64,000 bases of DNA, taken from an uncultured Actinomycetes bacterium. GTDB taxonomy: Bacteria > Actinomycetota > Acidimicrobiia > Acidimicrobiales > RAAP-2. A program made the position numbers and the translations under genes. Where the stretch lies: positions 124,001-188,000 of the forward strand of contig CAIKAC010000013.1 in the NCBI GenBank assembly GCA_903825305.1. Direction: 5' to 3'. Shown here in pieces: positions 1 through 52,272 of the stretch. The stretch's first letter is position 1. Each line of letters opens with the position of its first letter. The notes beneath the pieces are model-generated. The model searched no databases. It was not told the origin of the DNA and worked only from the letters and a program-made list of their open reading frames with translations.

Positions 1-1
1 A

Positions 2-382
2 CTGAGCGCGGAAAAGGTTCGAGAATTTCTCCGGCTCAACCAAAGCACCCTGAGTCTTGAACAGCCCATTGGTGAAGGCGATTACTCGCTGTCGGACACC
101 ATCGAAGACATTGACGTCGATGGACCCGAGGAAGAAGCGGCGAAGCATTTGCTCGAAGAGACCCTCCACGGCGTCTTGGGGGATCTCGATGAGCGCGAAC
201 GCATGGTGGTCGCCATGCGCTTTGGCCTCGGTGGCGCCAAGGCGGCCACGCTGGAAGAAGTGGGCAAAGAATTTGGCATTACTCGGGAGCGAGTGCGCCA
301 GATTGAGGCCAAGACCATGGCCAAATTACGCCGCCCTGAGAATGCTGCGGCCTTGCGAGCATTTCTTGGCGTGGCTGATTAA
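2..382 (+). CDS. rpoD: RNA polymerase primary sigma factor, C-terminal part (partial)
   Basis: The frame is open from base 2 and gives 126 residues, so the 5' end lies outside the window. An N-terminal stretch with LSLEQPIGE looks like sigma region 3. It is followed by region 4, with VLGDLDERERMVVAMRFGL, the helix-turn-helix TLEEVGKEFGITRERVRQIE and the tail AKTMAKLRRPE, which are diagnostic of sigma-70 group 1/2 factors that contact the -35 element. The protein ends about 20 residues after the helix-turn-helix, as is normal. Whether this is the essential housekeeping factor or a group 2 paralogue cannot be decided without the missing regions 1 and 2. Confidence 0.93.
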   Translation: MSAEKVREFLRLNQSTLSLEQPIGEGDYSLSDTIEDIDVDGPEEEAAKHLLEETLHGVLGDLDERERMVVAMRFGLGGAKAATLEEVGKEFGITRERVRQIEAKTMAKLRRPENAAALRAFLGVAD

Positions 383-435
383 TTGGCCCGGCGCCGAGAC
401 CCCGGGGTGTGCCTGCTAGATTCAAGTCTCGTTAT

Positions 436-507
436 TCCGAGGTAGCTCAATGGCAGAGCACGCGACTGTTAATCGTGTGGTTGAGAGTTCGAGTCTCTCC
501 CTCGGAG
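436..507 (+). tRNA. tRNA-Asn (anticodon GTT)
   Basis: A 72-nt cloverleaf. The acceptor stem is TCCGAGG (436-442) with CCTCGGA (500-506) and discriminator G507. The D arm is GCTC/GAGC, the anticodon stem is CGCGA/TCGTG with loop CTGTTAA and GTT at 468-470, and the T arm is GAGAG-TTCGAGT-CTCTC. No CCA is encoded. An antisense reading frame across it gives a peptide typical of false ORFs over tRNAs. Confidence 0.95.
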
Positions 508-550
508 CGCAGTATTGATGGTCCTGAGGGACCATTGCCGGAGGGGGACT

Positions 551-811
551 ATGGCTGAGACTGACGACAAACGTTGGTTTACCCGATCGGAAACCTTTCC
601 CGGGCTTCGCATCCTCACCTGGCAAGGCAAAGTCGCATTTTGGCTCTACGCATTTTTGGTCGTGGTCGCCATTGCGATTTATGTCGGCTCCAACCTCGGA
701 CTCATGGTCTTTGTTGTGGCCTTTTACACGGCGGTCTTTTTCGGCATCGTCCTCGTCAAGTCCGACATCAGGCCGCCAGAGCCGCCCTCACATGACGATG
801 GAGAGCGCTAG
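551..811 (+). CDS. Small two-helix membrane protein
   Basis: An 86-residue protein with a hydrophilic N-terminus (MAETDDKRWF), two adjacent hydrophobic segments at about residues 28-46 and 48-67, and a proline-rich acidic tail (PPEPPSHDDGER). The ATG at 551 is chosen because GGAGGGGG precedes it at good spacing. An upstream in-frame ATG at 515 lies in the tRNA trailer and lacks a ribosome site. I do not recognise a family. It is convergent with the next gene and overlaps its 3' end by 4 bases. Confidence 0.6.
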   Translation: MAETDDKRWFTRSETFPGLRILTWQGKVAFWLYAFLVVVAIAIYVGSNLGLMVFVVAFYTAVFFGIVLVKSDIRPPEPPSHDDGER

Positions 812-1893
812 CAGCCAGTTCCGCTCAGGATGATAGGCTGCGCGGTTACCCTGCCGTGTGAAAGGCCTGGAGTGCCTACCGAACAGGTCCAGGCGTTGGG
901 TTGTGCCATCACACTAAAGAAGTCTCGTTGGGAACTGGTGAAATACTGAGCGGGATCGTGGTGGAAGCCGGGAAGTTCAAATGAATAGCTCGGACGGCGT
1001 TGGTGCATCGGAGATGAAAACAGACCGATACTCGGCCAATCTGGATTGATGTCAAGCTGCATGCCCGTCACAATGCCAGCCGCGATTTCCGCCTGGGCGA
1101 GCTGCGAGGGCAAGGTTCCATTCATCGTCGCCACGTAGATCACGTTGCCTTTGGCATCCAGGCCGAGCCCCGAACGGGGCTGGGCTCCAATAGATGCCAG
1201 CGTGGCTCCCCAGTTGCCCCAAGCAGGGTTTGCTGCCAGAGCCGTGAGTTTGGCGCCGGCCACCAAGAGAGGAAGGTTCTGACGGCATGAAATTGCAGCG
1301 AATTTCTTGGTGGGCAACCCAGCCCCCCAGGCAGCAATTTTGAGTTGCCCAAGGTTATTGATGCACGCGGTGGCCATTCCGGGAACCATCGCCTCTAAGA
1401 CTTGGCCGTCCATGATGACGCCACCAGCGTTGGCGTTGGCTTTAAAACCACCGTTGAATGCTGCGAGGACACCGACGCGCAATTCTCCATCAGAGAGTTG
1501 CGGCTTGGCGTCGGCAGGCACATTGGTGGCGGATCCCGGGGGATCAATGGTGCCACCGTGGAGGTGAAAGGCCACCGTTCGGCTCCGAAAGCGAACCGCC
1601 GTAAAGCTGATACCCGGGTACACAATGGTCTGGCGATCCACCATGACGCCACGGGCCGATCGGGCGACCACCTTCCACCCACGTTGGGGCAGCTCAAGAG
1701 GCTGGGGTGCGATGGTCGTGGAAGTCGTGGATGAACCCGTTGGAATGGTGCTCGACGGACTTGAGGTAGTTGGCTGAGAACTCGAGGGACTCGCAGCTCG
1801 CACGGTTGCATCAGCTGAGTCCATGGTGCTGACTAGGGCCAGCGAGGAACTCGCTACGACGAGCGTGGCGAGGGTTGTTAGCAACTTCTTCAT
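808..1893 (-). CDS. Secreted phosphodiester-glycosidase-like (NAGPA/DUF2233) protein
   Basis: A 361-residue exported protein. The N-terminus MKKLLTTLATLVVASSSLAL is a signal peptide, followed by a low-complexity Ser/Thr/Pro linker (about residues 35-65). The folded part carries GVLAAFNGGFK, GGVIMDG, RSGLGLDAKGNVIYVATMNG and MQLDINPDWPS. These match the pattern of the NAGPA/DUF2233 phosphodiester glycosidase family (uncovering enzyme and exopolysaccharide-related proteins). The start at 1893 is chosen for the signal peptide; an in-frame start 25 codons upstream would bury it. Cysteines near residues 205, 230, 340 and the C-terminus could form disulfides. The substrate is unknown. The gene is divergent from the pst operon, so phosphate control is possible but unproven. 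Confidence 0.7.
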   Translation of the reverse strand: MKKLLTTLATLVVASSSLALVSTMDSADATVRAASPSSSQPTTSSPSSTIPTGSSTTSTTIAPQPLELPQRGWKVVARSARGVMVDRQTIVYPGISFTAVRFRSRTVAFHLHGGTIDPPGSATNVPADAKPQLSDGELRVGVLAAFNGGFKANANAGGVIMDGQVLEAMVPGMATACINNLGQLKIAAWGAGLPTKKFAAISCRQNLPLLVAGAKLTALAANPAWGNWGATLASIGAQPRSGLGLDAKGNVIYVATMNGTLPSQLAQAEIAAGIVTGMQLDINPDWPSIGLFSSPMHQRRPSYSFELPGFHHDPAQYFTSSQRDFFSVMAQPNAWTCSVGTPGLSHGRVTAQPIILSGTGC

Positions 1894-2249
1894 TGGAAAT
1901 CCAATCGTGGTGGAGGCGAGGCAACCGTCAAGGGTAGTGGTGCCCGCCAGGCCAGCGATGTCGCCCATGATCGGCAGGGGGCGCTCTTGGATCGACCTCT
2001 CGTCTCGACCTCAATTTGCGGACCAAAGAGACGCGGAGTTTTTACTTAGCCCGGTTGATGAAATCAAAAGTGCTGCAATTTAGGGATTCCTGTGAATTCT
2101 GTGGCGATCCTGTGCAGAGGCTTAATCCGTAGAAATTGCACGCAAAGTTTACTTATAAATGCCAGATGGGTTACCGAGATCATCCAAAGATAAAAATTCT
2201 TGTGGCTACGGTGCTCAGTGGAGTCCCCCAACGAAAGGAAAACCCTTCC
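1894..2249. other. Divergent intergenic region upstream of pstS
   Basis: 356 bases between the glycosidase-like gene (-) and pstS (+), with no convincing gene. It is AT-richer than its surroundings. It holds three CTGTG repeats (2088-2114), an AT-rich TTATAAAT at 2153-2160 that could be a -10 element for pstS, and the pstS ribosome site AAAGGAAAA (about 2234-2242). Confidence 0.5.
2088..2114 (+). promoter_or_regulatory. Pho-box-like CTGTG repeats upstream of pstS
   Basis: CTGTG occurs at 2090-2094, 2099-2103 and 2110-2114. The last two are spaced 11 bp with a 6-bp gap, the geometry of the CTGTN6CTGT Pho box in Proteobacteria and of PhoP direct repeats generally. The match is partial, and the site lies about 40 bp upstream of the best -10 candidate, which is further than usual. 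The assignment is tentative and comes mainly from the context of a phosphate transporter. Confidence 0.3.
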
Positions 2250-3455
2250 ATGAGCATTTCCCAGAAGCTCTCTCGAGGCCTCGTGCTCTCGGGAGCGGCA
2301 TTGGCCGTTTCAGCTGCACTAGTCATCCCGGCTGGTGCATCGACCAACGGTATTTTGAGCCACGACTTGTCATCAGGTGCCGGGACTGTCACCTCGGCAG
2401 GTTCAACCTTTGACGCCCCATTGCTCAACGTTGCCGAGCCTGCATACGCATCACGCAACTCGCACGCGACCATTGCTGCCTATGGCGGCGGTGGCTCAGG
2501 AGCTGGAGAGACCGCAGTAGTTACGGGAACCGCAGAACTTGGCTTCTCGGACGTACCGCTTCGTCAAATTGACCTCGCGGCGAAGGCTGGCAACGGCTGG
2601 GATCAAAACATTGGTGACTTTGTGCAGGTCCCTGTTGCCCTTGGTGGCGTGGCCATTGTCTTCAATGACACGGCGATCTCACAGTCGATCTACTACAAGA
2701 AGAGCGGTTTGGTCCTGACCTCAGCCATCTTGGCCAAGATCTACAAGGGTCAAATCACCAAGTGGAACGACCCCGCTATCTGCACCGTCAACCCCGTGTG
2801 GGTGGTCAAGCACAGCTGCAAGTTGCCCAATGCCAGCCTGACCGCTGTTGCTCGAAGCGACTCTTCGGGTACGACCTTCGCGTTCACGAACTTCTTGAAC
2901 AACGCGCAGCCCACCTTGTGGAGCACGCAGCCGAGCAAGGTCAGCATTGCCGGTAATGGCATCTTGGGTGCGGCCGGTAACGGTGGCGTTGCTCAGACCA
3001 TTGGCTCCGAATCAGGCACCATTGGTTATCTCGAGTACAGCTACATCGCTTTGGGCAACCACTTGAGCATGGCCAAGTTGGTCAACCAGGCTGGCAAAGT
3101 CGTCAAGTGCAACACCACCACGGTGGCCGCTGCAGCTGCTCACAAGGGTGCGGTTGCTCCTGACAACCAGACGTGGAAGTTCTCCATCGTGAACCAAGGC
3201 GGCGCCAACTCATGGCCGATTTCGACCTACTCGTGGGCCATCATCAAGAAGCACCAGAGCAACGCTGCAAACGGCACGGTTGCTGTGAAGTTCCTTGACT
3301 GGCTCAGCCACACTGCCCCCAAGGGAGCCGCAGCCTACGGTCAGGACTACGCCGCCCAAGAAGGCTACGTGGCGCTGCCCGCCAACGTTCAGGCTTTGGC
3401 CCGTACCAACTTGCTCCAGGTTGTTAATGGCAGCAACCAGCGACTCCTCAACTAA
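2250..3455 (+). CDS. pstS: Phosphate ABC transporter substrate-binding protein PstS
   Basis: A 401-residue periplasmic-type binding protein that captures phosphate for PstCAB. The N-terminus MSISQKLSRGLVLSGAALAV...PAGA-ST is a Sec signal. The PstS hallmarks are GSTFDAPLLNVAEPAY, YGGGGSGAGE, LGFSDVPL, IYKGQITKWNDPAI and ARSDSSGTTFAF, the last being the Ser-Gly-Thr phosphate-binding loop. The ATG at 2250 is chosen because AAAGGAAAA precedes it and it opens the signal peptide. The lipobox cysteine usual for Gram-positive PstS is absent: cleavage is predicted after AGA with no Cys. This is the first gene of pstSCAB, probably induced under phosphate limitation. Confidence 0.95.
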   Translation: MSISQKLSRGLVLSGAALAVSAALVIPAGASTNGILSHDLSSGAGTVTSAGSTFDAPLLNVAEPAYASRNSHATIAAYGGGGSGAGETAVVTGTAELGFSDVPLRQIDLAAKAGNGWDQNIGDFVQVPVALGGVAIVFNDTAISQSIYYKKSGLVLTSAILAKIYKGQITKWNDPAICTVNPVWVVKHSCKLPNASLTAVARSDSSGTTFAFTNFLNNAQPTLWSTQPSKVSIAGNGILGAAGNGGVAQTIGSESGTIGYLEYSYIALGNHLSMAKLVNQAGKVVKCNTTTVAAAAAHKGAVAPDNQTWKFSIVNQGGANSWPISTYSWAIIKKHQSNAANGTVAVKFLDWLSHTAPKGAAAYGQDYAAQEGYVALPANVQALARTNLLQVVNGSNQRLLN

Positions 3456-3484
3456 GCGTCGCTGAGGAGACTCGGAACAAGACG

Positions 3485-4450
3485 ATGATTGACCTAGTCA
3501 ACGAATCGAAGTTCAACCGTCGAGACTTGGCCTTGGGGGATTCCCCCAAGGCCAAGTCCGATTGGCCATTCAAGCTCGTAGTCCGAGGAATCTCGGTGCT
3601 TTTTGCGTTGGTCATCATCTTGTTCGTGTGGAGCATCATCCACCAATCACTGCCAACGTGGAAATCCCAAGGCTTGGGATTTCTTACCAATACCAGCTGG
3701 GCGCCTGGATTAAATCAGTTCGGTGCGGCTCCGTTGATTCTCGGAACGCTCATCACGGCATTCATCGCGTTGCTCATTGCCGTACCCATTGGTTTGGGCA
3801 CGGCCCTCGTTATTACCTTCTTGCTACCGGCAAGAATTCGCACCGTCATGACCAGTCTGGTCGAATTGCTCGCCGCCATTCCCTCGGTGGTCTACGGGCT
3901 CTGGGGGCTCATTGTCCTCGTGCCTCTCTTTTCCAACACTATTGAACCCGCCTTACAGTCATGGACTGGTGGCATCGGAATCTTTTCGGGTGCCACGCAA
4001 GGTCTCGGACTCCTGCTTGCTGGCATCGTCTTGGCCGTCATGGTGCTGCCCACCATCGTGGCTATCTCGCGAGATGTGATTGCAGCTGTTCCGAGCGAAT
4101 TGATTGAAGGCGGCCTTTCGCTTGGCGCTACGCGCTCGCAGGTTTTAACCAAGGTGGTGTTGCCCGCTGCCAAAACCGGCATCTTGGGTGCCATTTCGCT
4201 CGGAGCAGGCCGAGCTCTCGGAGAAACGATTGCCGTGGCGATGGTGATTGGCTCAAGCCCCGAGATGCCGCACTCCCTCTTTTCTGTTGGTGCAACGCTG
4301 GCTTCCATTATCGCCACGCAATTCATCGATGCCTCAGCACCACAATTGGCAGCCTTGGGTGCCTGCGCGCTGATTCTGATGGTCTTTACGGCTTCGGTGA
4401 ATGCAGTGGCTCGGTCCTTGGTGCGCCGCACCGCCACGGTGGGTGCATAA
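3485..4450 (+). CDS. pstC: Phosphate ABC transporter permease PstC
   Basis: A 321-residue inner-membrane permease with about six transmembrane helices. The first helix (about residues 31-55) is followed by the long external loop typical of PstC, then LITAFIALLIAVPIG. The EAA-type loop is LIEGGLSLGATRSQVLTKVVLPAAKTGI, read in two parts. Together with PstA it forms the phosphate channel energised by PstB. It lies 29 bp after pstS; a GAGGAG lies a little far upstream of the ATG. Codons 14-25 contain a perfect 16-bp inverted repeat (separate entry), which may lower expression relative to pstS. Confidence 0.95.
   Translation: MIDLVNESKFNRRDLALGDSPKAKSDWPFKLVVRGISVLFALVIILFVWSIIHQSLPTWKSQGLGFLTNTSWAPGLNQFGAAPLILGTLITAFIALLIAVPIGLGTALVITFLLPARIRTVMTSLVELLAAIPSVVYGLWGLIVLVPLFSNTIEPALQSWTGGIGIFSGATQGLGLLLAGIVLAVMVLPTIVAISRDVIAAVPSELIEGGLSLGATRSQVLTKVVLPAAKTGILGAISLGAGRALGETIAVAMVIGSSPEMPHSLFSVGATLASIIATQFIDASAPQLAALGACALILMVFTASVNAVARSLVRRTATVGA
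3524..3558 (+). repeat. Perfect 16-bp inverted repeat with 3-nt loop in pstC
   Basis: GACTTGGCCTTGGGGG (3524-3539), loop ATT, then its exact reverse complement (3543-3558). The hairpin lies wholly within codons 14-25 of pstC and encodes DLALGDSPKAKS. The antisense strand encodes nearly the same peptide. A stem this long and GC-rich just after pstS would be very stable in mRNA. It could act as a 3' stabiliser of pstS message or as an attenuator ahead of the permease genes. There is no U-tract, so it is not a standard intrinsic terminator. Confidence 0.9.
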
Positions 4451-4452
4451 CC

Positions 4453-5376
4453 ATGACTGATCTCTTGCAGCTTCCTCCCGATCCCATTTACGACCGGCGC
4501 CGGACAATTCAGTCCATGGCTTCAGCATCGATGGGGCGTCGAAAGATGCGCAATCAGGTTTTCACGGGTCTCATCGTGAGTTGCCTAGTTATTGCTCTCA
4601 TTCCTTTGTTCTTTGTCATCCTGGCGATCATTGAGAAGGGAATCGCAGCCATCTCGTGGGGATTCATCTCAAAGACTCCGGTGCAGCCCACCATCTTTGA
4701 TCAGAACAACATCGGCGGTGTCGGCAATGCCATTGTTGGCACGCTTATCATCGTCGGCCTCGCAGCCTTGATTGCGGTGCCAGTTGGGATCATCGTCAGC
4801 ATCTATCTGGCTGAATCCGATAATAAGGTTGCCAACCTTTTCCGCGCAGCTATCGAAATCTTGACGGGCCTGCCCTCAATTTTGCTTGGTGTGTTCGCGT
4901 ACTCCTACATTGTGCTCAAGACTCACACCTATTCAGGTTGGGCCGGGTCGTTCGCGCTCGCGGTGCTGATGATCCCTGTGATCACGAAGGCCTCAGAGAA
5001 CGCGATTCGTAGTGTGCCGGCCACCTTGACTGAGGCCGGATTGTCACTTGGCGCCCGCTCCTCGACGGTGGTGCGAAAGGTCGTAGTTCCAGCCGCCGCT
5101 CCCGGCATCATCACAGGGGTGCTCCTCGCCCTCGCACGGGCCATTGGGGAGACCGCACCGATCTTGTTGGTTATTGGTGCATCACTTAACTACGAAGTGA
5201 ATCCTTTGAACCCCATGCCTGCATTGCCGACCACCATTTACAACTACGCAGGATCGGCGTATGCCAGTCAGCGCACGGCCGCTTGGGGTGTTGCCTTCAT
5301 CCTGGTCGTGCTGGTGTTGATTTTGAGTTTGGGTAGTCGATTTATTGCTGCCCGCATGAGGAGAGAGCGTCACTAA
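4453..5376 (+). CDS. pstA: Phosphate ABC transporter permease PstA
   Basis: A 307-residue second permease of the phosphate transporter. An N-terminal cytosolic tail of about 35 residues precedes a helix with [16 protein letters not shown]. The PstA signatures include [31 protein letters not shown] and the coupling loop [20 protein letters not shown]. It starts 2 bases after the pstC stop and ends in a TAATG overlap with pstB, indicating translational coupling. Confidence 0.95.
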
Positions 5377-6221
5377 TGGAGGACCCAATGGAGAAGCTTG
5401 AAGTGGTAACAGAGTCAGAGACCCAAGGGTCTGCAGCGGCAGTTGCCCTAGCGCCAGCGATGCGCTTGCAAGACGTTGCAGTGTCATTCAACGGTCGAAC
5501 TGCAGTTCGAGACGTGACCTTTGATGTCGCGACCAACAAGGTCACGGCCATGATTGGACCATCGGGTTCAGGAAAAACCACCTTGCTGCGTTCACTGAAT
5601 CGCCTGCACGACTTGACCAAGGGCGCTGAGGTCACCGGCAAGATTTTGCTTGGCAATACCGACATTTACTCGGGAGGTATCCCGACGACTTTGCTCCGGT
5701 CACGCATCGGTATGGTGTTCCAACGTCCGAACCCTTTCCCAACGATGTCTATTTACGACAACGTCGTCTCAGGTTTGCGCTTTAACGGTATCAAGAAGAA
5801 AGCACTTCTCGATGAAGCAGCCGAGTCAGCACTCATTTCCGCGGCGCTCTGGGACAGCGTGTCATCTCGAATGAAGGCCCATGCCTCAACGCTTTCTGGG
5901 GGAGAGCAACAGCGTTTGTGCATTGCGCGAGCCCTCGCCGTGGAGCCTGAGATCTTGCTGATGGACGAACCGACGTCTTCGCTCGATCCCATTTCAACGC
6001 AGCGCATCGAAGAGCTCATGAGCGAGCTCAAGAATCGCGTCACCATTATTATCGTGACCCACAACATGCAACAGGCCGCTCGAGTCTCTGATGACTGCGC
6101 GTTCTTGCTGATGGGTGAAGACCGAGCTGGTGAACTCATTGAGTTTGCCCCAACTAAGAAACTGTTCTCCGAGCCGGCGGATCCTCGAACTTTGGAGTAC
6201 ATCGAAGGTCGATTCGGCTGA
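5376..6221 (+). CDS. pstB: Phosphate ABC transporter ATPase PstB
   Basis: A 281-residue ATPase that powers PstCA. Walker A is GPSGSGKTT, the Q-loop is [18 protein letters not shown] (typical of PstB), the signature motif is [16 protein letters not shown], Walker B is [13 protein letters not shown] and the switch His is in VTHNMQQA. The ATG at 5376 overlaps the pstA stop. A second ATG at 5388, with GGAGG just ahead, is an equally good start (277 residues). No phoU follows, although pst operons often end with it. Confidence 0.95.
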
Positions 6222-6288
6222 TACCCGAAGTCGCGATGGCGTCGGTGTGAAATTGTTCTGACTGTCCAGCGGCAGGCAGAATAGATCC

Positions 6289-6888
6289 ATGGCATCTCAC
6301 AACCAGGGGTTCACCTCGGCGCTGCAGCTACAAAAGTTGGCGCAGATGGACAAACGGGCGCAACACCTAGCAATCATCAAGACCGCTGGGCTCGTGGTGA
6401 TTGCTTGGGTCGTCATCTTTCTCGCTTATTTCATGATTCCCGTTCAGTCGATTACTGGGGTCAATCCGGTATTGCGCTTCGTGTTGGGCACTGCGCTTGT
6501 GATCGCGGTGTTGATGTGGCAGATCTATCGAATTCGAAACTCCAAATTGCCTGAATTGAGGGCGGCTGAAGCCGTAGGCGTGCTGATCCCACTCTTTCTC
6601 ATCGTGTTTGCGACGATCTACCTTTCGATATCGGTGGCGAACCGTCACGCGCTCACTCAGCCGCTTGATCATGTGGCGGCCATCTACTTTGCAATCACCA
6701 TCTTCTCGACTGTGGGGTTTGGTGACATCACGGCAGTATCTAATCCGGCCCGCCTGCTTGTCAGTCTCCAAATGATTCTTGATCTAGTCCTACTCGCCAC
6801 CATCGTCAAAGTGCTCTTTGGCGTGGCGAGAAATGTCTCAAAGCAAGATGGCCAAGCGGAACCTGGCCTCAGTGACTTGCTCTCGTAG
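6289..6888 (+). CDS. Two-pore-domain-type ion channel (Ion_trans_2)
   Basis: A 199-residue membrane protein with four hydrophobic segments, at about residues 30-50, 60-80, 95-118 and 155-180. Between the last two sits a pore helix with selectivity filter STVGFGDITA, matching the TVGFGD of potassium-channel pores. Such small channels probably work as tetramers. There is no RCK/TrkA-N domain, so no obvious ligand gating. The first 25 residues form a cytosolic amphipathic stretch. It lies 67 bp after pstB on the same strand but is unlikely to be part of the transporter. Confidence 0.75.
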   Translation: MASHNQGFTSALQLQKLAQMDKRAQHLAIIKTAGLVVIAWVVIFLAYFMIPVQSITGVNPVLRFVLGTALVIAVLMWQIYRIRNSKLPELRAAEAVGVLIPLFLIVFATIYLSISVANRHALTQPLDHVAAIYFAITIFSTVGFGDITAVSNPARLLVSLQMILDLVLLATIVKVLFGVARNVSKQDGQAEPGLSDLLS

Positions 6889-6943
6889 AACGAAAGTGGA
6901 AGATGGGCGAAGTTCAGATCGGACTGATCTCTGCCGCGACTGA

Positions 6944-6959
6944 AGGGTTCGCGAACCTT
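6944..6959. terminator. Possible hairpin between convergent genes
   Basis: The 12-bp palindrome GGTTCGCGAACC (6946-6957), flanked by further weak pairs, sits in the 161-bp gap between the channel gene (+) and the next gene (-). The position suits a bidirectional terminator, but no T-tract follows. Confidence 0.3.
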
Positions 6960-7049
6960 GATGTCAATGAACACATGCTGAGACCCCTCTGTTAATTACC
7001 CGCTGACGTCACCGAGCACGCTAATGAGAGCTCGCGTGATGGGTCGCGG

Positions 7050-8279
7050 TCAGCCTTTCTGCCCGTTAATGTCTACTTGAAAATAGATATTCGAATTTAG
7101 GCTGTACTGGTTCGACGACGGGGGTTGAGTGCAAGAAGAACCCTGTGTGCTTTCGCAAAGCGAAATACTCTCTGACTTTGAACCGAGGGGACACACACCA
7201 TTTTGAACACAGGGATTGATATTTCCCGGACAGATGGGCAGTGTCGCGGGGTCAAGATTAGGAATGTAGGTCTGATCGCCTGGCGTCATCGCGATTTGCA
7301 CAATCGTTGAGCTGTAGATGTCTTGTGTTTGGGAGTCCATCCCATCAATGATGAATTCGCATGTAGACGCTTGATTGCAAAAGGCTTGCTGTTGCAAGGT
7401 CTGTTTTTCGATGACGATAGGCGCGGCGTTGGTTGCACAACTGGTGGTGGCACTTCCCGATGAGGTCATCATTGCCACTTCGAATGATGGGTTTGGCATT
7501 GTTGATGAGATGGGAGTCGGGCACGTGATTTGAAGTTGAAACGCGGAGCCGGTATCGGTAACCACAACCTGGATTTCAGATTGGAATTGGATTTCATTGA
7601 AATATTCGATGTTTTGCTCATCTTGTGGAGAATTTTGACAAGAGCTGTATCCAGGAGTTGAGGTCAAGGTGGTTGTGGCGCTGGTGACAATGTCTCCCGG
7701 CGTGATGGTCGATGATGACGGAGCCGCGGCCAATGTTGCATGACCCTCAAAACTCGTCAGTGTTGCGGGGGTGGCGTTGCGCACGAGCGACGATGTTGAA
7801 GCCTTGCTCGACACGCGAGGATTGCCAATCCACACCGCGGCTCTCACTTGGTATGTTCCCGGTGTCGTCGGGGCACACGCGCTGAGGTTGTGAACGTCAG
7901 TTGTTTCAGATCCGCTACTGAGCAGCACTCTCTTGTGTACCCACCACAAGCCAACCTTCCCGTTTTTCGACACGGAGCGATACTGGACCTCAGCAATCAT
8001 GGGCTTAGTTCGAAGTCCCGGGTGGGTGACGAGTTGCAGGTGATACGGAGCGCCTCCTGCGAACTTGGGATGGGCCACTGAGGAGGCAAGTTTGATGCGG
8101 ACGCAATCATCGCCAGGCTGATTATCTCCACTCCCATCGCAATAGGCAGGTGACTGGTGAACGGACACGATGGCTTTTGATGAATTTGAACCTGCCAAAT
8201 GGGCGACCAGCAGGGCCCCAATCGCAATGAGTACCAGGGCTGTGATCCCGCCGAAAAGCAGGGATTGTTTCTTTGTCAC
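7050..8279 (-). CDS. Membrane-anchored secreted protein of unknown function
   Basis: A 409-residue protein. The GTG at 8279 is chosen because GAGGAGCC precedes it and it yields a clean anchor: TKKQ, then SLLFGGITALVLIAIGALLV. The rest is predicted extracytoplasmic, rich in Ser, Thr, Gln and Asn, with many scattered cysteines (for example SACAPTTPG, CPTPISS, SCATNAAP, FCNQASTCEF) that suggest disulfides. A central segment resembles a beta-sandwich, but I recognise no family. Base composition is visibly more AT-rich than neighbouring genes, which may indicate recent acquisition or relaxed constraint. Confidence 0.55.
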   Translation of the reverse strand: MTKKQSLLFGGITALVLIAIGALLVAHLAGSNSSKAIVSVHQSPAYCDGSGDNQPGDDCVRIKLASSVAHPKFAGGAPYHLQLVTHPGLRTKPMIAEVQYRSVSKNGKVGLWWVHKRVLLSSGSETTDVHNLSACAPTTPGTYQVRAAVWIGNPRVSSKASTSSLVRNATPATLTSFEGHATLAAAPSSSTITPGDIVTSATTTLTSTPGYSSCQNSPQDEQNIEYFNEIQFQSEIQVVVTDTGSAFQLQITCPTPISSTMPNPSFEVAMMTSSGSATTSCATNAAPIVIEKQTLQQQAFCNQASTCEFIIDGMDSQTQDIYSSTIVQIAMTPGDQTYIPNLDPATLPICPGNINPCVQNGVCPLGSKSESISLCESTQGSSCTQPPSSNQYSLNSNIYFQVDINGQKG

Positions 8280-8584
8280 GGGCTCCTCGTTTGCGATCTG
8301 AGCATTGATGCAGGCAATTGCCCACCACATGGCTACATGGAATTTCAAGATCAAATCTAGCCATGGCGTCTACGGACATGTGAGGCGTGACCTTTCGCTG
8401 ATCTTGAGAATGGTTTTTTACTGCTAGCGGTCCATCCAGCGCCAAGGCAGCGCCAAACACTGAGAGGGGCGAAGTAGGCTGGAGGGTGATCTACCGCCTT
8501 GTCGCAAGGCATCTCCGGCGCACGAAACTCGCCAAGGGTGCAAGGGGTGCAGGTGGATCAAAGGTGCCTTGGAAACAAGGACGA
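8280..8584. other. Intergenic region before the CAT tRNA
   Basis: 305 bases with no supported gene. It contains the ribosome site of the leftward gene at its left edge, a small perfect hairpin GCCTTG-TCG-CAAGGC (8496-8510) and a second small one, CCTTG-GAAA-CAAGG, about 10 bp before the tRNA. No clear promoter hexamers were found. Confidence 0.4.
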
Positions 8585-8658
8585 GGGGCTGTAGCTCAGT
8601 CGGTTAGAGCAAGGGACTCATAATCCCTCGGTCGTGGGTTCGAGCCCCACCGGCCCTA
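8585..8658 (+). tRNA. tRNA with CAT anticodon (elongator Met, or Ile2)
   Basis: A 74-nt cloverleaf. The acceptor GGGGCTG (8585-8591) pairs with CGGCCCT (8651-8657) through G-T wobbles at two positions, with discriminator A8658. The D arm is GCTC/GAGC, the anticodon stem AGGGA/TCCCT with loop CTCATAA, and the T arm GTGGG-TTCGAGC-CCCAC. The closed first pair and the anticodon stem exclude initiator tRNA. Elongator Met and the lysidine-modified Ile2 share this anticodon and cannot be separated here with certainty. No CCA is encoded. Confidence 0.9.
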
Positions 8659-8861
8659 CGAAGACCTCCGAGGGAGGCAACGCCCAAGGATATGACGCTT
8701 GGAAGCCGCAGAGGCACACCACGTCATGTTGCGTGGGGACTCGCCCAGGGGAAGCGTGATTTAAGGCCCCATCACGGCCTTGAGCGATATTCAGGCAAAT
8801 TTGAGAATTCTTACGGGCAAGCATCCCCAACGTGGCACACAATTGTTGGGAATATTTGCCT

Positions 8862-9338
8862 ATGGCTGTTGACTACACACACGATGAACACCCGCGCGTT
8901 TCTGAGCGCAAGAGAGAAAAGCCGGTCAAGGTAAGAGACCAAATCCAAACTGGTGAAGGCTTCTTTGCGAAACTCAACGCGAAAGTTGGACTGAGCGTCA
9001 CGTTGATTGTTGGCACCATGTGGTGTGCTTACGCCTTCGCACTCATTGCGCTGTTGTCACTGCCTTCAACGATTTCGTCGGGGTCGCTGTTTGAAATCGT
9101 GGTGTGGATTTCTTCAAGTTTCTTGCAGCTGGTATTGCTTCCCATCATCATCGTTGGACAAAACATTCAAGCGCGCGCTGCTGACAAGAGAGCAGAAGCC
9201 ACGTATAAAGACGCTGACGCGGTTCTTCACGAAGCCCGTGAAATTCAAAAGCACTTGCAAGCTCAAGACAAAGAGATCGAGCGCATCCTCGGTCTTCTCA
9301 AAGATCGACTCAATGCCGCTGGGGGCAGCGGCTCCTAG
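8862..9338 (+). CDS. Conserved actinobacterial membrane protein
   Basis: A 158-residue protein. After a basic, hydrophilic N-terminus come two hydrophobic segments, at about residues 48-70 and 80-102 (the second containing FLQLVLLPIIIVGQNIQ), then a charged helical tail of about 50 residues (RAEATYKDADAVLHEA, KHLQAQDKEIERIL) that should form a coiled coil in the cytosol. This layout and the motif LVLLPIIIVGQN-Q-A-RAEATYKDA recur in an uncharacterised actinobacterial family. The ATG at 8862 (MAVDYTHD) is preferred over one ten codons upstream. Function unknown. Confidence 0.65.
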   Translation: MAVDYTHDEHPRVSERKREKPVKVRDQIQTGEGFFAKLNAKVGLSVTLIVGTMWCAYAFALIALLSLPSTISSGSLFEIVVWISSSFLQLVLLPIIIVGQNIQARAADKRAEATYKDADAVLHEAREIQKHLQAQDKEIERILGLLKDRLNAAGGSGS

Positions 9339-10132
9339 CGGGCTTTCCATCTGGGAATAAAGCTCGGCACTTGTTCGACGTAGGAGCGATATTCGGACTT
9401 GGTGGCAACGAGATGACGCTCTAAGAGATCTCGACCCGACACTTTGACCAAAAGCCACGTCATCACTAGGGGTGAGATGATCGTGAAGAAGCCATAGACG
9501 CTTGCTGTGGCGAGCAAGAAGAACCCCCACCACACGACGGCTTCTCCGAAATAATTGGGGTGGCGGCTGCGAGCCCACAGCCCTGCCGCCAACACGCCGC
9601 TGCCTCCTCGTGCTCTAAATCGTGAGAGTTGCCAATCGGCAGCGGTCTCGAAACTGATGCCGAAGACACATGCGATGATGCCAAGGAAGCCTAGGAGCCC
9701 TAAGGCAGATTGTTGGGTGATTGCCACCACAAGAGGACTCGCAACGATCACCATCATGAGGGCTTGTAAGCCATAGACGACCACTAGCAGTCTGCCGATG
9801 CGCTTGAAGCCCTTGCGTTCTCCAACGAGATCTCGATAGCGAACATCTTCGCCTTCACCTCGAGATCTCCAAGCAAGATACCCACCGAGTCGTAGGGCCC
9901 AAATCACCACAAGCATTAATGGCACCAACGCTGAGGCGTCATGGCGATGTGCACTCTCGAACCACGTAGCGAGCGCAATGGCCAAGAAACCCAAAGGCCA
10001 GAACACGTCGACATCTCTCACTCGCCCACGAACGAGGCCGTGTCCGAAGGCCAAGGCCATCGTGGAGATCGCCACGATCAGACTCACGAGAAACGCGAAT
10101 CCGAGGCTGTGTGGGGAGAGCGCCGCGATCAT
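9335..10132 (-). CDS. DUF1295 steroid-5-alpha-reductase-like membrane protein
   Basis: A 265-residue polytopic membrane protein. The DUF1295 signature is clear: the DVDVFWPLGF region, the central FGISFETAADWQLSRFRARGG segment and the conserved LWARSRHPNYFGEAVVWWGF, ending with PSFIPRWKAR. The family is related to steroid 5-alpha-reductases and isoprenylcysteine methyltransferases, and the RHPNYFGE motif is thought to bind cofactor. The substrate is unknown. It is convergent with the small membrane protein, with a 4-base overlap, and divergent from the MFS gene. Confidence 0.8.
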   Translation of the reverse strand: MIAALSPHSLGFAFLVSLIVAISTMALAFGHGLVRGRVRDVDVFWPLGFLAIALATWFESAHRHDASALVPLMLVVIWALRLGGYLAWRSRGEGEDVRYRDLVGERKGFKRIGRLLVVVYGLQALMMVIVASPLVVAITQQSALGLLGFLGIIACVFGISFETAADWQLSRFRARGGSGVLAAGLWARSRHPNYFGEAVVWWGFFLLATASVYGFFTIISPLVMTWLLVKVSGRDLLERHLVATKSEYRSYVEQVPSFIPRWKAR

Positions 10133-10192
10133 GGATTCAACTTAGGCGCCTCACCGCCAAGCGCGACTGCGGCTCCTAGGCTAGACGTCACC

Positions 10193-11587
10193 ATGGCTGT
10201 GCGTTCTCGAATCGTTCGACTCCGCACCCTTGGCGCTGAAGCCTTCGCTGACTTGTTTGACCAGCGCTCAGCGTTCGGCCGCTTGGCTCTCGTCCAGGTG
10301 CTGATGATTGCTGGTGACATGCTGGTCACCATTTCTTTGGCTGGCTCCCTCTTCTTTTCGATTTCTCCCACTGAGGCCAAATCCAAGGTCTTGCTCTACC
10401 TCCTGTTGACAATCGCTCCCTTTGCGGTGGTATCTCCGCTCCTCGGGCCTCTGATCGACCGCTCACGGGGCGCGAGGAGGGCAATGGTGGTCTTCTCTGG
10501 GGTCGGCCGAGCGGCATTGTGTCCGTTCATGGCGCGCGATATCCATTCGTTGTTGTTGTTCCCTGAAGCGTTTTTGATTCTGGTCTTGTCCAAGCTCTAT
10601 TTGGTAACCCGAGGGGCACTAGTTCCAGAGATCGCTGAGGCAGATCACGAGGTCCGGGGCCACGAAGCGGCTGACGCTTATTTGGCCGATAGTTCGGCTC
10701 AGGGAAGTCGCCATGGTCTTGCGGGTTGGAATGCGCAGTTGACCTTGCTTGGCACCTTGGCTGGCTTCGTCATCTCGATACCAGGGGTTACCTTGTTAAA
10801 GACGACTGGGGCCACCGGTGTTCTCATCTTCGATACGGCAGTATTTGCCGTGGCCGCCATCGCGGGTTTGCGCCTCAAGCTCCCTCGCCGACGTCACCGC
10901 GCCGAAGAATTTGCCGATGCTTCTTGGGAGGTTCCCACCTACGAGGAAAGCTATGACGATCATGACGAGTGGGGGGCCGATACTGACCCCGATCTCGTCG
11001 CGATTGCCCCGGTCACGCATCCGGAAGTCATTTTGGGCCTCAGTGCCAACTCAATTTTGCGAGGCATTGCGGGATTCTTGGTGTTTTTGCTCGCCTTTGG
11101 ACTTCGTCGTAGTCATGCCGCGCTCTATTGGTACGGTCTCGCCCTTGGCGCATCGGGCGTTGGTGCCCTCATTGGCTTGGCTCTGGTTCCTAGGCTGCGC
11201 CGATTCATGCGCGAACCTCAGATGTTGTTACTTAGCCTGGCTGTGGTATGTCTGAGTGCCATTGGCGCGGCCGAAGTTGGGGGATTGCCGATCCAAGCAG
11301 TGTTGAGTCTCATGGTGGGTGTCGTCGGTGCCATTGGCCAACCCAGCTTCGATGCAATGACGCAGCGTTACGTTCCGGTAGCCGCTCAAGGTCGAGCTTT
11401 TGCTCGATTTGCGACCCGCCAGCAACTCATCTGGGTGATCGGTGCTGTTATTCCCGTTGCGATCGCTCTGTCGTTTGTCAGTGGCGACTGGATGATCGCC
11501 GGAATCGCTGGCGCAGCAGCGTTGTGGTATCTCGTCGCCCGCATCCGTCGAGTCCCTAGGGGTCGACGGATGCGGGGACAAGACTAA
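10193..11587 (+). CDS. MFS transporter
   Basis: A 464-residue protein with about twelve transmembrane helices in two halves. The first-half motif is [18 protein letters not shown] (loop 2-3 of the major facilitator superfamily). The halves are separated by a long acidic cytosolic loop of about 65 residues ([15 protein letters not shown] to [10 protein letters not shown]). The ATG at 10193 is chosen since the frame extends far upstream only as antisense to DUF1295. The substrate is unknown. It overlaps the 3' end of pckG by 4 bases. Confidence 0.75.
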
Positions 11588-13377
11588 GACAGTCGACGCT
11601 CGAGGTCGTCGACGGCTGCGCTGAGCGCCGCGGGAAGGCGGTCGCCAAACTGCGCGAAGTGTTCACGAATCAACGGCACTTCAGCACGCCATTCATCGTG
11701 GTCGACTCGCAGAAGTTCGGCAAGGTCAGCGTCACTCACGTCCAGCCCATCAACGTTGATAGCGCCTTGTGAGGGGAGATAACCGATGGGAGTCTCGACG
11801 GCTTCGGCACGACCAGCAACGCGCTCGAATACCCATTCAAGGACGCGCGAGTTGTCTCCATATCCCGGCCACAGCCAACGACCATCAGCGTCTTTGCGGA
11901 ACCAGTTGACGTAAAAAATCTTGGGCAACTTGGACGCATCGCCCTTCGCGCCGACTTCGAGCCAGTGGCCGAAGTAATCAGCCATGTTGTAGCCACAGAA
12001 CGGCAACATGGCGAAGGGGTCGCGACGCAAGTTTCCTACCGCACCAGCTGCTGCAGCCGTCGTCTCTGAAGCCATGATGGATCCAAGGAATACGCCGTGT
12101 TCCCAGTTGAAGCTCTCAAATACCAAGGGCACGACCGAAGCGCGGCGACCACCAAAGAGCACTGCAGAGATCGGCACACCAACGGGATCTTCCCATTCAG
12201 ACGCAATTGCCGGGTCTTGGCTTGCTGGAACGGTAAAGCGTGCGTTGGGGTGTGCGGCTGGTTTGCCTGATTCAGGGTCGAAGGCATTGCCTTGCCAGTC
12301 AGTGAGGCCGTCAGGACGCTCGCCGTCGATACCCTCCCACCACACGTCTCCATCGGCGGTGAGCGCGGTGTTGGTGAAGATGGTGTTGGCGGCAATGGTC
12401 AACATGGCATTGGGGTTGGTGTGCATGGACGTACCAGGCGCCACACCAAAGAATCCAGCTTCGGGGTTGATGGCGTAGAGGCGACCGTCAGCGCCGTACT
12501 TCATCCAGCAAATGTCGTCACCCACGGTTTCGACTTTCCAGTCGGGAAGGGTGGGGATCAACATGGCCAAGTTGGTCTTGCCACAAGCCGAGGGGAACGC
12601 AGCGGTGACGTACTTGGTCTCACCGGCGGGAGAGGTCAACTTCAAAATCAGCATGTGCTCGGCCAACCAGCCATCGTCGCGGGCCATGACGCTCGCGATG
12701 CGAAGTGCGAAGCACTTCTTGCCCAAGAGGGCGTTGCCACCGTATCCAGACCCATACGACATGATTTCGCGGGTCTCGGGGAAGTGGACGATGTATTTGA
12801 CCTCGCGGTTGCATGGCCAGGCCATGTCGGCTTCACCTTCTGCGAGCGGGTGGCCTACTGAGTGGAGACAGGGAACGAAATCACCGTCTTCACCGAGGAC
12901 CTCAAGGGCCCCTTTACCCATGCGGGTCATGATTCTCATGGAGACCGCCACGTAGGGCGAGTCCGTGAGCTCGACGCCAATGTGGGCAATGTTGGAACCA
13001 AGTGGCCCCATCGAGAAGGGGATGACGTACATCGTGCGGCCCTTCATGCAGCCGTCGAAGAGGCCATTCAAGGTTGCGCGCATCTCGGCGGGATCCGCCC
13101 AGTTGTTCGTCGGTCCGGCATCTGCTTCATTCTCGGAACAGATGTAGGTGCGGTCTTCAACGCGGGCTACGTCAGCAGGGTCAGAAGCGGCATAGTAACT
13201 GTTGGGTCGCTTGGCCTCAGAGAGCTTGGTGAAAATTCCCTGGTCGACCAGCAATTGACAGAGTCGGTCATACTCTTCAGCAGATCCATCACACCAGTAG
13301 ATGGCATCTGGCTTGGTGAGTTCGGCTACCTCATTGACCCAATTGATCAACTTGGCGTTCTTCGTGGGCACTGACAT
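11584..13377 (-). CDS. pckG: Phosphoenolpyruvate carboxykinase (GTP)
   Basis: A 597-residue cytosolic enzyme interconverting oxaloacetate plus GTP with PEP, CO2 and GDP. The diagnostic P-loop with catalytic cysteine is [12 protein letters not shown] (near residue 270), the metal/kinase-2 motif is VGDDICWMK and the guanine-binding region contains [19 protein letters not shown]. Length matches GTP-type enzymes. The ATG at 13377 is preceded by GAGGAGGAACG. It stands alone, convergent with the MFS gene, and supports gluconeogenesis or anaplerosis. Confidence 0.97.
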
Positions 13378-49775: not shown

Positions 49776-49812
49776 CTGAAACGAGACGCTTGGGATGGGC
49801 GTCTTTACGGAG

Positions 49813-49857
49813 AACCCCTCGGATCAATGCGCACCACGCCATTGATTCGAGGGGTTT
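49813..49857 (+). terminator. Intrinsic terminator after carbonic anhydrase
   Basis: AACCCCTCG-G-ATCAATG (49813-49829) pairs with CATTGAT-T-CGAGGGGTT (from about 49840) through a 17-bp stem with one G-T pair, followed by TTTTCT. This is a strong rho-independent terminator. It also lies downstream of the leftward tRNA-Gly and may serve both directions. Confidence 0.85.
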
Positions 49858-49913
49858 TCTGCGTGGGGGCAAGGAGAGAGCGGTTGAGCCTGCTCAAGCG
49901 TCTCCAATCGGAG

Positions 49914-51691: not shown

Positions 51692-51717
51692 GTAACGCTC
51701 AGCGTGCATCACTCGGT

Positions 51718-51754
51718 GTGAGGTGGTCTTCTCCACGATAGAAGGCCACCTCAC
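51718..51754. terminator. Long hairpin between convergent genes
   Basis: GTGAGGTGGTCTTCT (51718-51732), loop CCACGAT, AGAAGGCCACCTCAC (51740-51754) form a 15-bp stem with a single G-T pair. The stem overlaps the last codon of the leftward RDD gene. No T-tract follows. It is probably a bidirectional transcription stop or mRNA 3'-end protector. Confidence 0.6.
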
Positions 51755-52272
51755 GCCAGTGGTTCGTTGCTCTGGTTCTCGGTGTTGCGCGTGGCGAGCC
51801 AGCGAAGGCGCGCGGCTCTGGCGTCCCAGTCGTAGACGACGCAGGTTCTGGCGATCGCATCGTGGAGACCTCGGTGCCGACGAGTAAAGACGATCCCGAA
51901 ACTGCCCAAGGTGAGGATGGAAATGGGAAGCGCAATGGTTCGAAGTAGCGCAGCCCGTTTCGTCAGTGGTCCGCCATCAAAGCTGACGACGCGCAGTCCC
52001 AAAATGGCCATGCCGAGGGTTTTGCCCGAAAGCGCCCATTGATAGGTGAAATAGAAGGTGAACCAAATTACGACGGCAATCGCGGTCGTGATTCGCAAGT
52101 GAGAGATACTCACCGTCCTATTAGTGGTGACCCGTACCGCAAAGGTGATGCCAGCTCCAAGGAAAATCAGTGAGTACCACGCGATCACCACGTCGAGCAC
52201 GAGGGCGCACAAGCGCGAGACTGGCCCCGCATAGGTTCCCTGTCGACCAATCGACGATGGGGTCGTGGTCAT
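51751..52272 (-). CDS. RDD-family membrane protein
   Basis: A 173-residue membrane protein with three to four helices and the RDD pattern: GPVSRLCALVLDVVIAWYSL (R-x-x-A-x-x-x-D), YQWALSGKTLGMAILGLRVV, and the late RHRGLHDAIARTCVVYDW. In many actinobacteria this domain is fused behind a repeat domain like that of the preceding gene. Here the two are separate genes overlapping by 4 bases (ATGA). Confidence 0.82.
   Translation of the reverse strand: MTTTPSSIGRQGTYAGPVSRLCALVLDVVIAWYSLIFLGAGITFAVRVTTNRTVSISHLRITTAIAVVIWFTFYFTYQWALSGKTLGMAILGLRVVSFDGGPLTKRAALLRTIALPISILTLGSFGIVFTRRHRGLHDAIARTCVVYDWDARAARLRWLATRNTENQSNEPLA

Follow-up and report, generated by a model that had tools for sequence, protein, structure and literature searches.

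The pst operon and its in-frame hairpin

The window, meaning the whole 64-kb stretch of DNA analyzed, carries a phosphate import operon in the order pstS-pstC-pstA-pstB. It belongs to a genome of 1.94 Mb in 27 contigs, and the relatives named in this work are Acidimicrobiaceae/Acidimicrobiales MAGs. The features of the locus, in window coordinates and all on the plus strand, are as follows.

2250..3455, plus: pstS, phosphate-binding protein (TIGR00975), the presumed beneficiary of the hairpin
3456..3484, plus: pstS-pstC gap of 29 nt, directly between the two genes
3485..4450, plus: pstC, phosphate ABC permease (TIGR02138, 277.8 bits)
3524..3558, plus: putative mRNA stem-loop with a 16-bp stem, GACTTGGCCTTGGGGG / CCCCCAAGGCCAAGTC, and a loop of 3 nt (ATT); spans pstC codons 14-25
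3524..3539, plus: 5' arm of the hairpin
3543..3558, plus: 3' arm of the hairpin, also coding for a KSD-type motif before the first membrane helix
4453..5376, plus: pstA, a control whose start lacks a strong hairpin
5376..6221, plus: pstB (TIGR00972, 343.1 bits against a cut-off of 343.2)

The arms were re-checked and are exactly as an earlier note on this DNA had described them: two stretches of 16 nt separated by a 3-nt loop, in frame at those codons. Read as DNA, positions 3524-3540 form a perfect inverted repeat with positions 3542-3558 around a 1-nt spacer; read as RNA, they give the 16 bp and the 3-nt loop. The two strands do encode almost the same peptide (DLALGDSPKAKS and DLALGESPKAKS), as the note had also remarked, which is a trivial consequence of the dyad center being in register with the codons. 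The stem begins 39 nt past the start codon of pstC and 68 nt past the stop codon of pstS. We interpret the 29-nt gap as leaving no room for a stem-loop plus the ribosome-binding site of pstC.

The segment 3520-3562 folded as RNA at −37.0 kcal/mol (z = −9.2 against dinucleotide shuffles), and none of 200 shuffles was as stable. This is the sole perfect stem of at least 15 bp in the window; on a general hairpin score it comes third among nine hairpins with comparable values. Rfam covariance models applied to window positions 1-10000 (E ≤ 1) matched two tRNAs only and left the hairpin unmatched. An 11-nt inverted repeat further into pstC (3661-3683) was dropped, being absent from the nearest relative.

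Covarying stem arms at one codon position in pstC

Orthologs of pstC from the same family carry a strong hairpin at the equal position with a different sequence. The dyad center falls at exactly one shared codon in 36 genomes, and 30 distinct 5' arms were found among the 34 aligned relatives. An independent script found pairs 3-16 formed in 97.6% of the cases across the 36 genomes, compared with 61% on average and 69% at most when the 3' arms were dealt among the genomes (1,000 trials). In the 34 ungapped sequences, 97.1% of the cells were paired (62.1 ± 1.4% after shuffling), the covariation score was 0.930 (0.228 after shuffling), and compensatory changes were present at 13 of the 15 pairs. 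Sliding the partner by 1 to 3 columns lowered the pairing to about 40 to 51%. By this comparison, matching changes in the two arms are shown to preserve the pairing of the pstC hairpin at one fixed codon, and covariation of this kind in 34 to 36 genomes is strong evidence for structure within a bacterial reading frame. The earlier note had called a chance origin very unlikely, had proposed comparing the N terminus of pstC in related genomes, and had named absence of the palindrome from near relatives, with freely varying codons, as evidence against its own reading. No such absence was seen, the pairing being kept, and the shuffles and the fixed dyad together lead us to judge the hairpin as non-chance.

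The hairpin is confined to one place in the gene. Along 58 family pstC genes, 84% showed a strong hairpin in a sharp peak about 320 to 340 nt before the conserved ELLAAIPS codons, and the profile was near zero elsewhere in pstC and at the pstS end; in 74 more distant pstC genes, nearly all from other phyla, the frequency at that place was 0 to 3%. The pstS-pstC junction carried a hairpin in 58 of 65 cases in the main PstC lineage (the other 7 were below threshold) and in 18 of 19 in the second PstC lineage of the family, with control regions at 0 to 5%. Among other orders, classes, and phyla, hairpins at the junction were rarer and, where scored, mostly intergenic. The family pst hairpins have short loops and stems of 13 to 23 bp, many of them of 13 to 16 bp, which begin mostly 26 to 56 nt past the start codon and mostly 60 to 100 nt past the pstS stop, with a few start assignments uncertain. 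We rejected a misplaced pstC start, which would make the hairpin truly intergenic: for each of the 76 strong pst hairpins scored in the family, the frame is open and begins with a start codon 5' of the hairpin, which places the hairpin within the pstC frame. In the pstC of the window, the next in-frame ATG or GTG past the hairpin sits within the first membrane helix.

The pairing could be incidental to a constraint on the protein or on the DNA, such as a conserved N-terminal peptide or a dyad operator, and the 3' arm does overlap a partly conserved KSD/SDRPY-type motif. When 60 genes were reshuffled synonymously, each with its own codon usage, 63 of 18,000 sequences matched the observed hairpin, and none of the 300 reshuffled versions of the pstC segment of the window reached it. 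The hairpin is therefore not a by-product of the protein, and by these reshuffles its pairing is shown to exceed what the protein requires. Moreover, the peptides encoded by the arms differ widely among clades, and the conserved sequence that an operator would need is absent. Such a constraint is already contradicted for most genomes, and we hold it to be very improbable. The earlier note had also offered a small inserted palindromic element (REP/MITE-like), an idea prompted by a perfect palindrome sitting in coding DNA. The genome-wide search for the palindrome that it recommended turned up the arm nowhere else in exact form, and what relatives share is the pairing and not the sequence, the many distinct arms being found at one fixed codon; an insertion is, in our estimate, close to inconceivable. 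Searches of the genome with sequence patterns gave no multiple similar copies, and a mobile palindrome was rejected.

Hairpins at binding-protein-to-permease junctions

A survey of eight family genomes revealed a hairpin at 40 of 51 binding-protein-to-permease junctions and at 1 of 48 permease starts preceded by another permease or by an ATPase (Fisher P = 4e−16). Upstream genes were classed by length, membrane-helix count, and ATPase motifs, spurious frames being removed by hand; Pfam confirmation of the binding proteins applies to the genome of the window (G000). These frequencies assign the hairpin to the junction, as an element of the binding-protein gene upstream: across the junctions compared, it is shown to be tied to the binding-protein gene immediately upstream, not to permeases as such. 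A pstC ortholog that has a PALP enzyme upstream in place of pstS (locus L095) has no hairpin. The permease frame was open through 29 of the 40 junction hairpins, although for the non-pst cases openness of the frame is not by itself proof of translation across the hairpin, and the other 11 were strictly intergenic. Two traits of a binding-protein stem-loop are thus found here, a position directly 3' of the binding-protein gene and near absence between permease and ATPase genes; the third, a place between genes and outside coding sequence, is lacking in the pstC hairpin.

In the genome of the window, six of the seven binding-protein-to-permease junctions carry a hairpin, some intergenic and some in frame, and several Pfam families are represented among the binding proteins concerned. 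In this genome's second pst operon (contig C5, L195:1054-1090), a perfect 16-bp hairpin lies between pstS and pstC. The central proposal of the earlier note, that a stem-loop of the binding-protein junction has shifted into the permease frame, gains support from the covariation at a fixed codon. It also fits the hairpins at most other binding-protein junctions, their near absence from other permease starts, and the intergenic hairpin of the second pst operon.

In the same genome, in-frame hairpins occur in two further permease genes (L189:2326-2352 and L187:1290-1321), and one of these hairpins encodes TPPPSRRRR; that at L187 has an almost identical copy in a sister species (L280). At glutamine-type binding-protein junctions of several genomes (L286, L293, L303, and L314) a similar arm recurs (GAACGGGGACGAC/GTCGTCCCCGTTC), so the hairpin sequence is more conserved there than in pst. 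A strong hairpin was missing from 11 of the 51 junctions, four of which apparently represent one recurring SBP_bac_3-type operon. In these four (L192, L310, L315, and L292, from four genomes) the binding protein ends in ...LGIYxxVPxIKP or close to it; such proteins are SBP_bac_3 in G000, and the hairpin is absent in all four genomes where they were seen.

Possible action on the pstS mRNA

Interior non-Watson-Crick pairs, counted in a fixed register and in the mRNA sense, comprised 12 G-U and 1 A-C, an excess that, with 13 cells from related sequences, weakly suggests a structure formed by RNA of the mRNA strand. A count over all stems with symmetric detection gave 45 G-U and 22 A-C; base composition predicts a similar ratio, and this count was set aside as proof of RNA.

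Hairpins past binding-protein genes have precedents. REP/PU elements between malE and malF or hisJ and hisQ form a hairpin after the binding-protein gene and protect the upstream mRNA; they share this position with our hairpins but are repeated, conserved sequences outside genes, whereas the stems described here share no sequence. The pstS-pstC intergenic regions of Streptomyces lividans, Escherichia coli, and Bacillus subtilis contain stem-loops, and the closest experiment comes from S. lividans, where a dominant 1.1-kb monocistronic pstS RNA accompanies a strong pstS-pstC stem-loop (PMC2605767). Operon, junction, and strength of the stem-loop are the same, and pstS RNA is more abundant there by Northern blotting. 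Nevertheless, those hairpins are intergenic, while ours occupies one set codon position within the pstC frame, and the protein tail there tracks the pairing. In cellulolytic Clostridia, the ratio of transcripts is set by internal terminators that follow binding-protein genes, and termination was measured there (PMC9045158). They resemble our case in following the binding-protein gene in many ABC operons and in having long GC-rich stems with few U; they differ in being intergenic, whereas here short junctions carry the hairpin in the next gene. That survey covered intergenic regions of >50 bp only, and one 24-bp junction was read through (PMC9045158). In the cip-cel operon of Clostridium cellulolyticum, selective RNA processing and stabilization were documented with mapped processing sites (PMC4423207). 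Segment stability controlled by stem-loops sets subunit ratios there, as it may here, though the operon is a different one. In the literature that we searched, which left most subscription papers outside, we found no hairpin embedded in a permease coding sequence.

The pstC hairpin is a real, selected RNA element of the pstS-pstC junction, and we consider that it probably works on behalf of pstS. An effect at the RNA level that raises the binding protein over the permease is likewise likely; exonuclease protection of the pstS mRNA as the specific step stands at about an even chance. In the pstSCAB mRNA, the hairpin would lie just past both the ribosome terminating on pstS and the ribosome initiating on pstC. 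This position, together with the tie to the upstream gene, suggests that the binding-protein mRNA is stabilized. Once the permease part had been cut or had decayed, 3'-to-5' exonucleases would halt at the stem and a stable pstS mRNA would remain, providing an excess of PstS over PstCAB. Since pstC starts just 29 nt past pstS, the hairpin would take up part of the variable N-terminal coding region of PstC, in place of a spacer. It counts against this scheme that ribosomes on pstC would unwind the stem, so that protection would be possible only on mRNAs untranslated there. The 11 binding-protein junctions and the 7 main-lineage pstS-pstC junctions that fell short of a strong hairpin also speak against it.

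The main rival is a partial transcription terminator, at which RNA polymerase would release a fraction of the transcripts after pstS. The clostridial terminators, low in U, have the same genetic position and outcome (PMC9045158), the stem-loop after pstS in S. lividans has been called a possible terminator (PMC2605767), and the stems of the family are long and GC-rich. Of the marks of an intrinsic (Rho-independent) terminator, however, the GC-rich hairpin is present and the U-rich tract is not: across the family, T made up 27.7% of the 8 nt past the stem and 26.6% further on, a separate count gave a mean of 2.0 T in 8 nt, a terminator scan did not report the pstC hairpin, and termination at a stem in translated sequence should be disfavored by the following ribosome. 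We regard termination as unlikely. Still less probable is a site for an RNase III-type double-strand endonuclease separating pstS from the pstCAB mRNA. Perfect stems of 13 to 23 bp with short loops are plausible substrates, and processing with stabilization of operon segments is known (PMC4423207), but many stems have just 13 to 16 bp and each cut inside pstC would destroy the permease message. Equally improbable, in our judgment, is a translational brake, in which a stem some 25 to 55 nt past the start would slow early elongation and lower PstC synthesis. The usual start-to-stem distance suits it, and it would likewise favor binding protein over permease; yet the 11 strictly intergenic junction hairpins could not act in this way, and the other permeases of the same operons have none.

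Protection of the pstS message by an RNA stem-loop, if correct, would represent the known stoichiometry hairpin of ABC importers in a new, coding-sequence-embedded form, whose function we infer from comparison. The excess of binding protein over permease is usually explained by intergenic elements, and published surveys search those gaps; in compact operons the ratio appears to be settled inside the next gene. We lean toward the view that in this family the hairpin protecting the 3' end of a binding-protein message is systematically encoded within the next gene, the N-terminal tail of the permease serving as a functional 3' untranslated region whose amino acids follow the RNA pairing. RNA pairing would then dictate part of the sequence of a membrane protein, surveys restricted to intergenic regions would overlook the in-frame class, and short binding-protein-to-permease junctions would offer a simple rule for finding such elements elsewhere.

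Other strong hairpins of the window lie at gene ends. An 18-bp hairpin at 11538-11576 overlaps coding sequence where an MFS-like gene (9941-11587) and a PEP carboxykinase-like gene (11584-13377, minus strand) converge; it is possibly a bidirectional end element. Two more, at 51715-51757 and 49808-49861, one between convergent genes and one 3' of a carbonic-anhydrase-like gene, are probably terminator-like.
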